A stretch of DNA of 9,649 nucleotides from a bacterium (GTDB lineage: Bacteria; ARS69), in NCBI GenBank assembly GCA_025774865.1, contig JALGZO010000309.1, forward strand, positions 1 through 9,649, in the 5' to 3' direction. Within the stretch, counting starts at the first letter, position 1. The number at the start of each line of letters is the position of its first letter. The position numbers and the translations under genes are program-made. The notes under the pieces were generated by a model. The model saw only the letters and a list, made by a program, of their open reading frames with translations. It was not told the DNA's origin and did no database searches. Of the stretch, positions 3,481 through 8,281 are shown piece after piece.

Positions 3481-6400
3481 TCACGGCCGGATGACGACGA
3501 CCGCGGGGAGCTTCGTCACGAGCGCTTCACCCCCGGTCGGCGGCCTCACCACGATTCCGGATGCCGGCATTCGCAGCGCACCTTCCATCTCCACGATCGT
3601 CGCCTCGCCGTCGAGCCGCGCGGAAAAAGTGATCGGGCCATACCGGGTTCGCAACCCGCGGATCCCCACGGGACCCTCGGACAGCCAATCGAAGGGCAGA
3701 CCGGCCGCTACCACGAGCGCGCCGTCCTCCCGCTCGTATGCGAACAGGTCCAGCGCGGAACGAACGAAGTCGGTGCCGACCCAGGAATGCGGCAAGTCCC
3801 CGAGAAAGCGCGGCGTCCGCAACTGGGAAGAGACGACCTCCGGCCACTGGCGCCAACCGGGCGGGCGGCGGTGTTCGAGGAAGAAGTCCACGAGCTCGTT
3901 CGCGCGATCCCGCCAGCCGAGCCGCACGAACGCACCGATGTTCCGAGTCTCGTACGGAGTGAACGCGTCCCACGGTTCCCCGCCGCGTCGATCGTCGAAG
4001 AACTGCCAGTAGCGCTCGAACGTGGCGGTAACCGCCCCGCGCGGCAACACGCCCCCGGCGTGCGCCGGCGACAGGCCGACCGTCGTCGAAGTCGCGTCGA
4101 AGTCGCCGAGATCGGCGCAGCCGGGAATATAGTCGATCCGGTGTCGCTCCATCGCGTGACCGATGGAGGCCACCAGGTCGCGCTCGAACTCGTCCCGGAT
4201 TACCTCGAGGCGGGCGCGCTCGCCCTCGTGCCCGAGCTCGCCCGCCAGAAATGCGGCGTCCTTGAAACCGCGTAGCGCGAAGAAATCGTCCCAGTAGGAG
4301 TGCATGGGCTTGGCCGAGTACCCCTCGTGACTGATCGAGGGTGGCAGGATGCCGTAGAACTCCTGGCGGTCCGGATCCTCGAACGCGGCGGTTCTTCGCC
4401 GTTGCCGGAGGGAGTCGAGGTAGCCCGCCGCCGCGACCACGCGCGGCCACATACGCGCGAGTACGTCGTGGTCGTCCGTGTAGCGGTAGTACTCCGCCAC
4501 GAGGAAGATGAACTCACCGTTGCTGTCGTGCTCCGGCACGGGGTCCGCACCGCGCCAATCGACGACACACGGCACCTTCCCGTCGTCATACTGATACGGC
4601 GCGAACCACTCGAGGAACTCGAGGACGACATCGGAGTGGCCCATGCGAAGAAGGGCCGACGAGGTGAGCGAACCGTCCCGGATCCACGAACGTGCGTACG
4701 CGCGCGAGCCGGGCTGAATCGCGGGGCCGGACCGGTTGACGAGGACCCAGCCGAGCTGCGCCTTCAGAGTCTCCTCGAACTCTCGCGCGATCGGGGGAAG
4801 CTCGAAGGCCACACGGCCCAGTCGGGACTCCCAGGCCGACCGCGACCGTTCCCGCGCCGCAACCAGGTCACCTCGTGGCACCGGCGCGCCGGGATGGAGG
4901 GGGAACACGATTTCGACCGTACGCTCCGCCCCGGCCGCGAGCTCCACCGCGTAGGCGAGCGCGGCGGACGCGGCCCCGAACGGATCACGGACCGAAGCGG
5001 CCGCTCCTACCGTGCCATGACCCAGGTGATCGACGACGATGTCGCCGCCGTCGAATGACACCGCACCGAACGAGTCCGGCCGCGTCACGCAGTTCACCGC
5101 CCTATCCCCGTCGACGTAGATCGAGTCTCCTTCTCGCGTGATCTCGTGGACTCGCGCCGTTCCTCCGATCGTGTTGAGGTCCTGCGACGGGGGATTGGTC
5201 TGGAACGGTCGGAGCGCGAGGTACAGCGAGCCCGCGGTGGGATCGGTTCCGTCGTTGCGAACGGCGTACCGGACGACGACGGAAGACCCGCCCGGCTCTC
5301 CGACGGCGACCGCGGAGATGGTCAGTTGCAGGTCGTCGTACCGCCACGTCACGCGCGGCATCGGCAGGAAGCCCGCCTCGAGCGACTGCTCGCCTTGTAC
5401 GTCGGCCCACGTCACGAGCCGGTCGTTCCAGAAGACGAACGGCTCGATCGAGAAGCGCTCCTTGCCGGTTCCGGTCATCCCGTCCTCGTTGAACAGGCAC
5501 TCGCGCGAGTCGCCGTCGAGGCCGACCACGGTCCAGTAGGACTGCTCGCCCGAGATCCCACGTGGATACGAGCCTCGGGGAGCATCCTTCGCGATCGCGG
5601 CGAAGAACGCCTCGCGCGTCGCCGACCATTCGATCGGTTGGACGGCGAGGCCGGTGAGAACGGGGGAGCCGTCTCCGTGCGCATCCACGATGCGAAGGCG
5701 CAGTTGCCGGGATTCCGACTCGGGGAGGTAGAGGTCGTCGCGTCCGCCGTTTCCCCCGGAGACCGTGCGGAGCGCACGCCAGTGGGTCTCGTCGTGTGAC
5801 GCTTCGACCACGTAGCCCGTCGCGTTCCGATCCGCGGCCCACTCGACCGTCAAGCCGCCGTACTCGCGGACGCCCCCGAAGTCGAGCGCGATCCAGCGTT
5901 CCGCGTCTCCGGCGTCGGGCGCCCACCCCGTGGCGACATTCCCGTCCAGCGCCGAGGCCGCGTCGTGTCCGGAGAGCGCCGACGACGCCTTGACGACCGG
6001 ATCCGGAAGCGGCGCACCAGGAGGCGGCAGCTCGACAAGCCGAAGCTCGTCGATCCACACCGAGCCCGTCCCGCCGCTTCCCGCGGTCACCGCCAACTCG
6101 ATCGCCGCGACGTGTTCGATCTCCCCACCTCCGAGCGGTCCCCAGGCGAACGAAATGTGCCGCTTCTTGATCGCGACGCGCCGCCACTCGCGGGGGAAGT
6201 CCATGTCGCGGCGCACCGACCACCAGACGTTCTCTCCCGTCGAGTCGATGAGCTTGAACTCGAGATGGTTCGGGAGCGCGTCGCCCCGGATCCGGAACGA
6301 GAACGCGTAGTTCTCGGGCAGGTCGAGCGCAAGCTCCCGGCGAGCGACCGCGTAGCCACCCCCGGAGAATCGAAAGTCGAGCTGCAACGCATTCCCCGAG

Positions 6401-6573
6401 AAGCCCGGGCCGGCGCGAATGTCGAGTGCGACGCCGTCCGCGGGATGGGCCGTCCAGCCGGTCACGTCCTCGAAATCATCCACCACGGCCGGATCGGCCG
6501 ACGACGCGGGCGACGACGAGACGGCGCAGAACGCGGCCGCGATCGCGACGCCCCGGGCCGGACCGCGCGTCAT
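3481..6573 (-). CDS. Secreted discoidin-domain six-hairpin glycosidase-like protein
   Basis: This protein of 1030 residues has a Sec signal peptide at 1-26 (Arg-containing n-region, Ala-rich core, likely cut after PASSA), so it is exported. Residues ~28-185 (VDDFEDVTGW at 31-40, ending SVWIDELRLVEL) look like a CBM11/CIA30-type jelly roll. Residues ~192-312 (ASSALSGHDAASALDGNVATGW, WIALDFGG, YVVEASHDETHW) form an F5/8 type C (discoidin, CBM32-like) domain. Residues ~340-585 are beta-rich and resemble the N-terminal sandwich of GH15/GH65/GH94-type enzymes. Residues ~595-955 look like an (alpha/alpha)6 barrel, with ARSWIRDGS (627-635), VPEHDSNGEF (679-688), HSYWDDFFALRGF (758-770) and TPYETRNIGAF (872-882). 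Acidic residues E681, E687, D762, D763 and E875 are candidate catalytic or substrate ligands, but I cannot assign a GH family. It is the last gene of the operon. Its ATG overlaps the permease TGA (ATGA) and has a good GGAGGG at 6582-6587, 8 bases upstream. The likely role is to bind and cleave an extracellular glycan whose products the upstream ABC system imports (inference). Confidence 0.85.
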   Translation of the reverse strand: MTRGPARGVAIAAAFCAVSSSPASSADPAVVDDFEDVTGWTAHPADGVALDIRAGPGFSGNALQLDFRFSGGGYAVARRELALDLPENYAFSFRIRGDALPNHLEFKLIDSTGENVWWSVRRDMDFPREWRRVAIKKRHISFAWGPLGGGEIEHVAAIELAVTAGSGGTGSVWIDELRLVELPPPGAPLPDPVVKASSALSGHDAASALDGNVATGWAPDAGDAERWIALDFGGVREYGGLTVEWAADRNATGYVVEASHDETHWRALRTVSGGNGGRDDLYLPESESRQLRLRIVDAHGDGSPVLTGLAVQPIEWSATREAFFAAIAKDAPRGSYPRGISGEQSYWTVVGLDGDSRECLFNEDGMTGTGKERFSIEPFVFWNDRLVTWADVQGEQSLEAGFLPMPRVTWRYDDLQLTISAVAVGEPGGSSVVVRYAVRNDGTDPTAGSLYLALRPFQTNPPSQDLNTIGGTARVHEITREGDSIYVDGDRAVNCVTRPDSFGAVSFDGGDIVVDHLGHGTVGAAASVRDPFGAASAALAYAVELAAGAERTVEIVFPLHPGAPVPRGDLVAARERSRSAWESRLGRVAFELPPIAREFEETLKAQLGWVLVNRSGPAIQPGSRAYARSWIRDGSLTSSALLRMGHSDVVLEFLEWFAPYQYDDGKVPCVVDWRGADPVPEHDSNGEFIFLVAEYYRYTDDHDVLARMWPRVVAAAGYLDSLRQRRRTAAFEDPDRQEFYGILPPSISHEGYSAKPMHSYWDDFFALRGFKDAAFLAGELGHEGERARLEVIRDEFERDLVASIGHAMERHRIDYIPGCADLGDFDATSTTVGLSPAHAGGVLPRGAVTATFERYWQFFDDRRGGEPWDAFTPYETRNIGAFVRLGWRDRANELVDFFLEHRRPPGWRQWPEVVSSQLRTPRFLGDLPHSWVGTDFVRSALDLFAYEREDGALVVAAGLPFDWLSEGPVGIRGLRTRYGPITFSARLDGEATIVEMEGALRMPASGIVVRPPTGGEALVTKLPAVVVIRP

Positions 6574-7394
6574 TCGCGAATCCCTCCGGCGAGGAGGCCC
6601 CGCACGTACGTCCGCTGGAACGCGAGAAAGACGACGAGCGCCGGCAGCACCGTGAGTACGGATCCCGCCATCATCAGCTCCGTGTCCTGCACGTGCTCAC
6701 CGGACAGGTTCGCGAGCGCGACGGGGAGCGTGTACATCGAGTCGTCGCTCAGGACGACGAGCGGCCACATGAAATCGTTCCAGGCCGCCAGAAACGTGAA
6801 CGTCGCCATCGTGACGAGGATCGGTCGAATGACGGGCAGCAGAACCGTCCAGAAGATCCGGACTTCGCCCGCGCCATCGATGCGGGCCGCGTCGAGAAGA
6901 TCGTCGGGTACGCCGAGCACGTACTGTCGGATCAGGAAGATCCCGAACACGCTCGCGAAGTACGGGATCATCACGCCCAGGTACGTGTTCACGAGCCCCA
7001 GCTCGCGCAGCAGGAGGAACAGTGGGAGCATCCCGACCTGCGCCGGGATGACGAGCGCCATCGTGAGTCCCCGGAAGATCCGTTCTCGTCCCGGAAACGC
7101 GAGCTTCGCGAACGCGTATCCCGCCATGGCGTTGACGATCACCGAGACGACCGTGGCACCGGTCGTCACGACGACACTGTTGAAGAAGTGGCGCGCGACG
7201 TCGAGACGCGTGAACAGGTCGATGTAATTGTGGAGCGACGGGGCCTCGGGGAGGAAGCGGGGCGGTACGGTGTTCGCCTCCCCCGCCCGCATGAGCGACG
7301 CGCCCACCATCCAGACGAGCGGGGCGAGCGTGATCAGTGCGCCGAGGGCGAGCGCCGCGTGCGTCGCGACCCAGATCGCGAGCTTCCGCATCAT
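6570..7394 (-). CDS. Carbohydrate ABC transporter permease, MalG/UgpE type
   Basis: This 274-residue inner-membrane protein is of normal length for the MalG-type subunit of a CUT1 sugar importer. About six hydrophobic segments are visible near residues 9-34, 70-98, 107-130, 137-158, 185-210 and 240-262. The cytoplasmic EAA loop, which contacts the ATPase, is DLLDAARIDGAGEVRIFWTV (166-185) followed by LLP. The short C-terminal TYVRGLLAGGIRE is typical of the family. The frame stays open far upstream (to 8567), but that region is the other permease's sequence in a shadow frame. The start at 7394 gives an ATGA overlap with the upstream permease stop, like the other junctions. A second in-frame ATG follows directly at 7391. 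A weak GGGG lies 5 bases upstream of the first ATG. It pairs with the MalF-type subunit. Substrate specificity cannot be read from the permease; a beta-gluco-oligosaccharide is suggested only by the neighbours. Confidence 0.93.
   Translation of the reverse strand: MMRKLAIWVATHAALALGALITLAPLVWMVGASLMRAGEANTVPPRFLPEAPSLHNYIDLFTRLDVARHFFNSVVVTTGATVVSVIVNAMAGYAFAKLAFPGRERIFRGLTMALVIPAQVGMLPLFLLLRELGLVNTYLGVMIPYFASVFGIFLIRQYVLGVPDDLLDAARIDGAGEVRIFWTVLLPVIRPILVTMATFTFLAAWNDFMWPLVVLSDDSMYTLPVALANLSGEHVQDTELMMAGSVLTVLPALVVFLAFQRTYVRGLLAGGIRE
6582..6587 (-). promoter_or_regulatory. Ribosome binding site for the secreted glycosidase-like gene
   Basis: GGAGGG on the minus strand lies 8 bases upstream of the ATG at 6573, inside the last codons of the MalG-type permease (Gly-Gly-Ile-Arg-Glu). 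The ideal spacing fixes the start of the secreted protein and suggests it is translated efficiently even though it is the last gene. Confidence 0.65.
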
Positions 7395-8281
7395 CGTCGC
7401 CCCGGCGAGAGGCGCAGTTGAATGAGAGTGCCGATCAATGTGATCACGAGCAGCACGGCCGCGAGCGAGGAGGCCGCTCCCATTCTCCACCAGCGGAAGC
7501 CTTCCTCGTACATGAGCAGAACGAGACTTCTTGTGCTCCCGAGGGGTCCACCCTGCGTCATCACGTACGGCTCGGCGAAGAGCTGGAAATACCCGATCAT
7601 CGTCGTGACGCTCACGAAGAGGAAGACGGGGGCGAGACCGGGGAAGGTGACGTACAGGAAGCGCCGCCAGGCTCCCGCGCCGTCCAGAGCGGCCGACTCG
7701 TACAGAACTTCCGGGATGGCCTGCAGGCCGGCCACGAAGATGATCATGTTGTAGCCGAAGTTCTTCCAGACGGCCAACACGATGATCGCCGGCATGGCCC
7801 ACAGCGGATCGGCGAGCCAGTCGACGGGACCCAATCCGAGGAAGCCGAGCGCGTGATTCGCCAGTCCGTAGCGCGGATGGTAGAGGTAGCGCCACACGAT
7901 CGCCACGGCGACCAGCGTCGTCACGACCGGCGTGAAGAATACGGTACGAAAGAGACCACGCCACCGCACGAGGTGGCCACTCAGCAGGAGCGCACTGGCC
8001 AGCGAGACGAAGACGGACAGCGGTCCGCCGACCAGTACATAGTAGAGCGTGTTCCGCACCGCACCGCGAAAGGCCGGATCCGTCGTGACGGACACGTAGT
8101 TGTCGATCCCCACGAAGCGAGTCGTCTCGGGAGCGCCGATCGAGTAGACGTCGAAGTCCGTCAGGCTCAGGAGCAACCCGGACGCAACGGGCAGGAAGAA
8201 GAAGAATCCGATCAGCCCGAGCGCGGGCGCCAGGAAGAGCCACGCCGCGCGCGTCTCCGCGCGGGGAGCGCGCACGCTCAT
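7391..8281 (-). CDS. Carbohydrate ABC transporter permease, MalF/UgpA type
   Basis: This 296-residue inner-membrane protein starts MSVRAPRAETRAAWLFLAPA, a typical short cytoplasmic tail leading into the first helix of a MalF-type CUT1 permease. Hydrophobic segments lie near residues 13-40, 73-102, 112-132, 161-186, 214-238 and 266-288. The EAA loop is EVLYESAALDGAGAWRRFLY (191-210), followed by VTFPG. The FAEPYVMTQGGPLGST segment (235-250) is characteristic of the family. The frame is open further upstream, to 8542, but the ATG at 8281 gives the expected N-terminus and forms an ATGA overlap with the stop of the binding-protein gene. Its own TGA overlaps the start of the MalG-type gene in the same way. 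Only a weak GGGA precedes the ATG, so translation probably depends on coupling to the upstream gene. It would form the transmembrane channel with the MalG-type partner; the ATPase must be encoded outside the window. Confidence 0.93.
   Translation of the reverse strand: MSVRAPRAETRAAWLFLAPALGLIGFFFFLPVASGLLLSLTDFDVYSIGAPETTRFVGIDNYVSVTTDPAFRGAVRNTLYYVLVGGPLSVFVSLASALLLSGHLVRWRGLFRTVFFTPVVTTLVAVAIVWRYLYHPRYGLANHALGFLGLGPVDWLADPLWAMPAIIVLAVWKNFGYNMIIFVAGLQAIPEVLYESAALDGAGAWRRFLYVTFPGLAPVFLFVSVTTMIGYFQLFAEPYVMTQGGPLGSTRSLVLLMYEEGFRWWRMGAASSLAAVLLVITLIGTLIQLRLSPGRR

Follow-up and report, generated by a model that had tools for sequence, protein, structure and literature searches.

A secreted multidomain protein distantly related to GH15 glycosidases as a candidate component of bacterial beta-1,2-glucan utilisation systems

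Organisation of the locus

The window (the whole stretch of DNA analysed, 9,649 nucleotides) carries on its reverse strand an open reading frame at 3481..6573, present exactly as delimited in the first-pass annotation, whose 1030-aa product, P0001, is described by ORF, alignment and AlphaFold model as a secreted, multidomain, glycosidase-like enzyme. Upstream of it on the same strand lie two ABC sugar permeases, one of the MalG type (6570..7394) and one of the MalF type (7391..8281), both identified by Pfam/NCBIfam-type matches, and the sugar-binding lipoprotein of an ABC importer (P0003, 8278..9573), assigned as Lin1841-related on the basis of Pfam and sequence comparison. The ATG of P0001 and the stop codon of the upstream permease share 4 bp (ATGA), and this overlap makes P0001 the final gene of a coupled operon encoding a solute-binding protein (SBP), two permeases and the enzyme. 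Its earlier placement as the last gene of an ABC sugar-import operon is hence borne out by four tightly coupled genes.

The gene on the forward strand (P0002, 1..3456), which lacks its 5' end at the window edge, encodes a stand-alone GH94 phosphorylase-like protein, as judged by Pfam and sequence comparison. P0002 scores 820 bits against the phosphorylase domain of cyclic glucan synthase (CGS) and 291 bits against cellobiose phosphorylase, and most of its relatives are about 1,300 aa long, with the glycosyltransferase part absent. The first-pass description of this gene as cyclic-glucan-synthase-like therefore stands for its CGS-phosphorylase-like GH94 character, but not for a whole synthase. 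Within the P0002 coding region, ARAGORN calls a tRNA-Pro at 2413-2503, which is probably a false call arising from GC-rich coding DNA.

Domain architecture and fold of P0001

An AlphaFold2 model of P0001 was built with 54 aligned sequences (pLDDT 92, pTM 0.90). Residues 1-26 (6496..6573, reverse strand as for all features below) are likely a signal peptide, judged by eye from an Arg-containing start and a hydrophobic stretch, and are unstructured in the model. They are followed by a CBM11/CIA30-like jelly roll (residues 28-181; 6031..6492), which is supported by the model and by a weak sequence match (E 0.0017, below the Pfam cut-off; profile against PDB CBM11, E 2e-4), and by a discoidin domain (F5/8 type C, CBM32-like; residues 193-300; 5674..5997), seen in the model and the sole confident Pfam domain of the protein (residues 194-301, E 3e-14). 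The model and structure comparison then delimit a beta-sandwich (residues about 306-570; 4864..5658) and, with additional support from profile comparison, an (alpha/alpha)6 barrel (residues 594-942; 3748..4794), after which the model shows a C-terminal beta domain (residues 945-1028; 3490..3741). The domain order proposed earlier is thus reproduced from the signal peptide to the barrel, and the C-terminal domain, which had gone unmentioned, is added to it. All four motifs quoted for the barrel (WIRDG, PEHDSNGEF, SYWDDF and PYETRN) are found in P0001.

In Foldseek searches with the P0001 body, the best match was the GH15 dextran dextrinase (E 2e-16), followed by GH94, GH95 and GH116 enzymes. 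VIA structure comparison was led by GH65 7fe3 (Z 30.1) and GH15 5z3a (Z 29.2), with Z values of 28-29 to 5z3a over the barrel and to 9ju0 and 1lf6 over sandwich and barrel; other families scored about 26-28 (GH78) and about 24 (GH94). Both methods consequently agree with the initial description of a GH15/65/94-like body. The identities in these structure alignments are only about 9-16% (about 10-14% for GH15), so that the P0001 family cannot be placed from fold alone.

Placement among glycoside hydrolase families

The catalytic part of P0001 falls within no sequence family of Pfam, NCBIfam or the PDB, and PDB searches with it, both as single sequence and as profile, returned no match below E 0.4. 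GH162, GH192-194 and GH189 entered the comparison of the catalytic part through that PDB search, with nothing below the same value. The sub-threshold hints that were obtained involve Bac_rhamnosid6H and GH15-like models. For GH15, profile-profile comparison gave a probability of 97.3 (E 2e-11) and the model displays the beta-sandwich plus (alpha/alpha)6 barrel architecture (VIA). The curated GH15 model PF00723 has no match to P0001 and reaches at best E 0.001 among family members, TIGR01577 scores 29.5 bits versus a cut-off of 820.7, and a GH15 single-sequence search of the PDB was empty. The GH94 models PF17167/PF06165 do not match P0001 (profile-profile probability 66), nor does the GH144 model PF10091 (hhalign probability 0.7). 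The GH78 model PF17389 gives 16.7-17.5 bits against a cut-off of 24.5, and the Bac_rhamnosid6H match, present in 44 of 54 members, is weak. Pfam models of GH65 match neither P0001 nor the members, despite GH65 7fe3 topping the structure matches. Membership of P0001 in GH15, GH94, GH144, GH78 or GH65 was rejected because scores fell short of the curated-model cut-offs. These results agree with the first-pass annotation, which had recognised the signature of no single named family and had seen no clear motif in common with GH144.

Fold and profile alignment together point to GH15 as the nearest family. P0001 shares with the GH15 enzymes (glucoamylase, glucodextranase, isomaltose glucohydrolase, dextran dextrinase) the sandwich and barrel, the W-x-R-D motif and the base Glu between alpha11 and alpha12, and differs from them in its WPEVV, SHEGY and SYWDD motifs, its CBM11 and discoidin front and its beta-1,2-glucan gene context. 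With the GH94 enzymes (cellobiose phosphorylase, the CGS phosphorylase domain, SOGP) it has in common the sandwich and barrel and good Foldseek and VIA scores, but its GH94 profile match is weak, and a Glu occupies the position of the GH15 base. In phosphorylases, phosphate takes the place of the GH15 base Glu. The beta-1,2-glucanases of GH144, GH162 and GH192-194 share with it the pathway and, according to the literature, an (alpha/alpha)6 barrel. From sequence comparison and the predicted structure we conclude that P0001 represents a family that is undescribed in the Pfam, NCBIfam and PDB libraries and remotely related to GH15; it is a new family within a known superfamily. A search of the open-access literature found this enzyme family described nowhere, and in the papers on XCC2208 and XAC2312 the TonB receptor is the one component named.

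Candidate catalytic residues

Residue conservation was read from 54 sequences 38-57% identical to P0001. Invariant among them are R632, D633, D672, E681, D683, E750, D762, D763, D824, D826, E875, E912 and D926. From the first-pass set of candidates, E681, D762 and D763 hold as invariant, E687 is replaced by Gln in 11 of the 54 sequences, and E875, invariant in the 54, is Val in a Methylosinus relative.

Under six hhalign settings, R632-D633 of the WIRDG motif (4675..4680) aligned with the Arg-Asp of GH15 subsite -1, as also seen in the motif blocks, and E912 (3838..3840) with the invariant GH15 Glu. The latter corresponds to the Glu of LPEQV in isomaltose glucohydrolase, a residue mutated to Ala in structure 5z3e (E335A); E912 thus occupies the GH15 base position and is proposed as general base or nucleophile. 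The acid and base of GH15 enzymes sit in the alpha5-alpha6 and alpha11-alpha12 loops, respectively (PMC12446779). Counting helices in the model places E750 (4324..4326) in the alpha5-alpha6 loop, as its sole invariant acidic residue, and E912 in the alpha11-alpha12 loop, alongside D926. None of the six hhalign settings paired E750 with the GH15 acid, the automatic alignment leaving it unpaired, and its putative role as general acid is deduced from loop position and conservation. Both E750 and E912 are kept in the Methylosinus relative and in the divergent relative L115 (printed motif blocks). GH15 alignment and loop position hence favour E750/E912, with good though incomplete confidence, as the catalytic pair over the set E681/E687/D762/D763/E875. 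Dextran dextrinase has the same Glu pair and is nevertheless a retaining enzyme, so that the pair is compatible with an inverting or a retaining mode and sequence cannot separate the two (PMC12446779); the anomer and mode of P0001 lie beyond the reach of sequence and fold.

Distribution and genomic neighbourhood

A single scan of 84,980 species genomes found 287 relatives of P0001, 80 of which were taken for comparison. These are mostly full length, show 38-60% identity and align across almost the entire protein. They derive from Krumholzibacteria, Eisenbacteria, Latescibacterota, Gemmatimonadota, Acidobacteria, KSB1, Ignavibacteria, Phycisphaerales, Duganella, Lysobacter, Dyella and others. 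NCBI names the plasmid-borne relatives 'discoidin domain-containing protein', and further, more distant relatives (L115, L116, L117) belong to no named family. In the copy on a Xanthomonas sacchari plasmid (L119:15001-17820) the match falls in three pieces and gene annotation is absent, perhaps because the gene is disrupted or has been missed in the gene table.

Neighbouring genes matching PF10091 ('Glycoamylase') were identified as GH144, a representative from L026 matching XcSGL (XCC2207) with E 2e-182 and CpSGL with 7e-45, and were counted across loci by phmmer. Genes for GH144 endo-beta-1,2-glucanases occur in 52 of the 80 loci (54 genes, versus about 0.4 expected in the flanks by chance, given about 60 genes in 157.5 Mb); many of the 28 loci lacking one are short contigs. 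Genome-wide, a strong GH144 gene accompanies the enzyme in 34 of 36 genomes. Among 98 genomes related to that of the window, 8 have a strong enzyme match and 7 of these a strong GH144 gene, compared to 7 of the 90 others; the exception is the divergent L115, and the 8 genomes are not independent, since 4 come from the taxonomic family of the window. A chromosome-level Latescibacterota genome (L029) encodes enzyme and importer with no PF10091 gene genome-wide, indicating that the enzyme can exist without GH144.

Other recurrent neighbours are SBPs, permeases, GH1, LacI, TonB receptors, GH94, MalK-type ATPases and glucokinase. Beta-1,2-glucosidase activity has been demonstrated for a GH1 enzyme encoded in a beta-1,2-glucan locus (PMC12369401). 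In Croceibacterium the order is TonB-GH144-enzyme, with GH144 and enzyme overlapping by 4 bp and a GH3 gene close by. In Methylosinus sp. C49 a divergent relative adjoins a 1,2-beta-oligoglucan phosphorylase (SOGP; PF21958, E 3e-68), with a GH15 gene near; on the Methylosinus plasmid (L120:6523-11424) GH15, SOGP and the divergent relative are adjacent and form an unusual beta-1,2-glucan cluster. Esterase-like alpha/beta hydrolases are found near the locus in several genomes (L006:12506-13585; L118:7087-7842) and could possibly strip acyl groups from the glucan.

In the window's own genome, contig C588 encodes GH144 together with a TonB receptor, and C740 a fragment of a cyclic glucan synthase; components of the system therefore exist in the genome, though not all on this contig. 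The proposition that P0002 and the C740 fragment form one gene was rejected, their overlapping part being just 44% identical. The GH144 protein of C588 (L121:9257-20000) shows a weak match to a C-terminal sorting domain, and beside it and the TonB receptor the contig encodes large proteins that match no Pfam model and are found again in L002 and L040.

The binding protein P0003 is closest to Xac-MalE 3UOR (477 bits), then to Lin1841 (239 bits), with the next kind at 144 bits; among proteins of known ligand its closest relative is therefore Lin1841, the beta-1,2-glucooligosaccharide binder of Listeria. A linked beta-1,2-glucanase and a Sop-binding ABC importer, the two attributes of a beta-1,2-glucan locus, are thus represented by the GH144 neighbours and the Lin1841-related SBP. 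The Lin1839-1841 (Listeria), IALB_1177-1187 (Ignavibacterium) and SGR_2423-2427 (Streptomyces) loci likewise combine a Lin1841-kind SBP and ABC permeases with GH94 or GH1 and a beta-1,2-glucanase, as far as their published descriptions go; those descriptions, supplementary figures aside, include no P0001-like component.

Proposed role in beta-1,2-glucan utilisation

Beta-1,2-glucans are bacterial polysaccharides with roles in osmotic adaptation, symbiosis and pathogenesis, and the enzymes of their breakdown are still being discovered family by family. The beta-1,2-glucan link raised in the first-pass annotation gains independent evidence from the GH144 neighbours, the Lin1841-like SBP and the SOGP neighbour in Methylosinus, and P0001 very probably belongs to a beta-1,2-glucan utilisation system. 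Because its family adjoins known beta-1,2-glucan genes in many bacteria, it probably represents an enzyme so far missing from the pathway. The neighbourhood indicates the pathway, not the bond that P0001 cuts, and whether this is the beta-1,2 bond itself is evenly balanced.

Family, fold, neighbourhood, invariant residues and the alignment of E912 with the GH15 base come directly from computation; beyond these, we infer an exo-acting enzyme of the periplasm, its probable location, that acts on the beta-1,2 linkage with E750 as acid. GH144 would cleave beta-1,2-glucan outside the cell and a TonB receptor would carry the fragments to the periplasm, where the CBM11-like and discoidin domains of P0001 would bind them and its barrel pocket trim them from an end, R632/D633 holding the -1 glucose and E750 and E912 serving as acid and base, respectively. 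The products would be taken in by the Lin1841-like SBP and ABC importer and finished in the cytoplasm by GH94 phosphorylase and/or GH1 beta-glucosidase. Taken as a whole, this proposal of a GH15-distant secreted hydrolase trimming beta-1,2-glucan fragments in a conserved utilisation system is about as likely to hold as to fail. Somewhat more tentatively, a GH15-type two-Glu barrel turned to a beta-linkage would constitute a new GH family and a standard beta-1,2-glucan step across many phyla. If correct, the proposal adds a widespread pathway component, so far named only as a discoidin domain-containing protein, with a likely catalytic pair (E750/E912) open to direct test.

The known GH15 enzymes that carry this Glu pair are active on alpha-linkages, which counts against a beta-linkage and makes the opposite specificity a serious, if rather unlikely, alternative: P0001 might remove alpha-linked glucose that GH144, GH1 and GH94 cannot, such as the alpha-1,6 bond in fragments of alpha-1,6-cyclised beta-1,2-glucans. 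Beyond the proximity of GH15 by sequence, the best-matching structures belong to alpha-active enzymes (GH65 alpha-1,2-glucosidase, isomaltose glucohydrolase, dextran dextrinase, glucodextranase), beta-1,2-glucans cyclised by one alpha-1,6 bond occur in Xanthomonas, Ralstonia and Cereibacter (PMC11842490), and a literature search found no enzyme breaking that bond. However, the beta-active families GH94 and GH116 share the fold, GH94 with comparable Foldseek scores, and the P0001 family is present in many phyla with no known production of such cyclised glucans. It is improbable that the substrate is instead another co-used glycan, for instance the substituents or branches carried by osmoregulated periplasmic glucans: the weak Bac_rhamnosid6H matches and esterase-like neighbours would fit such a role, but the specific neighbours indicate plain beta-1,2-glucan and R632/D633 match glucose-binding residues of GH15. 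Slightly less probable again is that P0001 works on beta-1,2-glucan fragments as a transglycosylase and not as a hydrolase, for which the precedents are dextran dextrinase, a retaining transglucosidase that shares the Glu pair (PMC12446779) and is the top Foldseek match, and the transferases GH189 and IaSGT of this pathway (PMC8861115, PMC11842490), whereas the placement of P0001 between GH144 and importer suggests breakdown. A catalytically dead binding protein, which the two binding-type domains could suggest, is very hard to reconcile with the many acidic and aromatic residues invariant over 54 sequences, the GH15 base position included.

Assignment of P0001 to beta-1,2-glucan trimming would also bear on Xanthomonas citri, suggesting that its MalE really binds beta-1,2-glucooligosaccharides. 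The specificity of Xac-MalE has been entered as unknown (PMC7676653); by its similarity to P0003, 3UOR likely binds beta-1,2-glucooligosaccharides instead of maltose. The X. citri TonB receptor XAC2312, which responds to PhoP and low osmostress (PMC9108719), may, judging from synteny, be the receptor for the same kind of locus.
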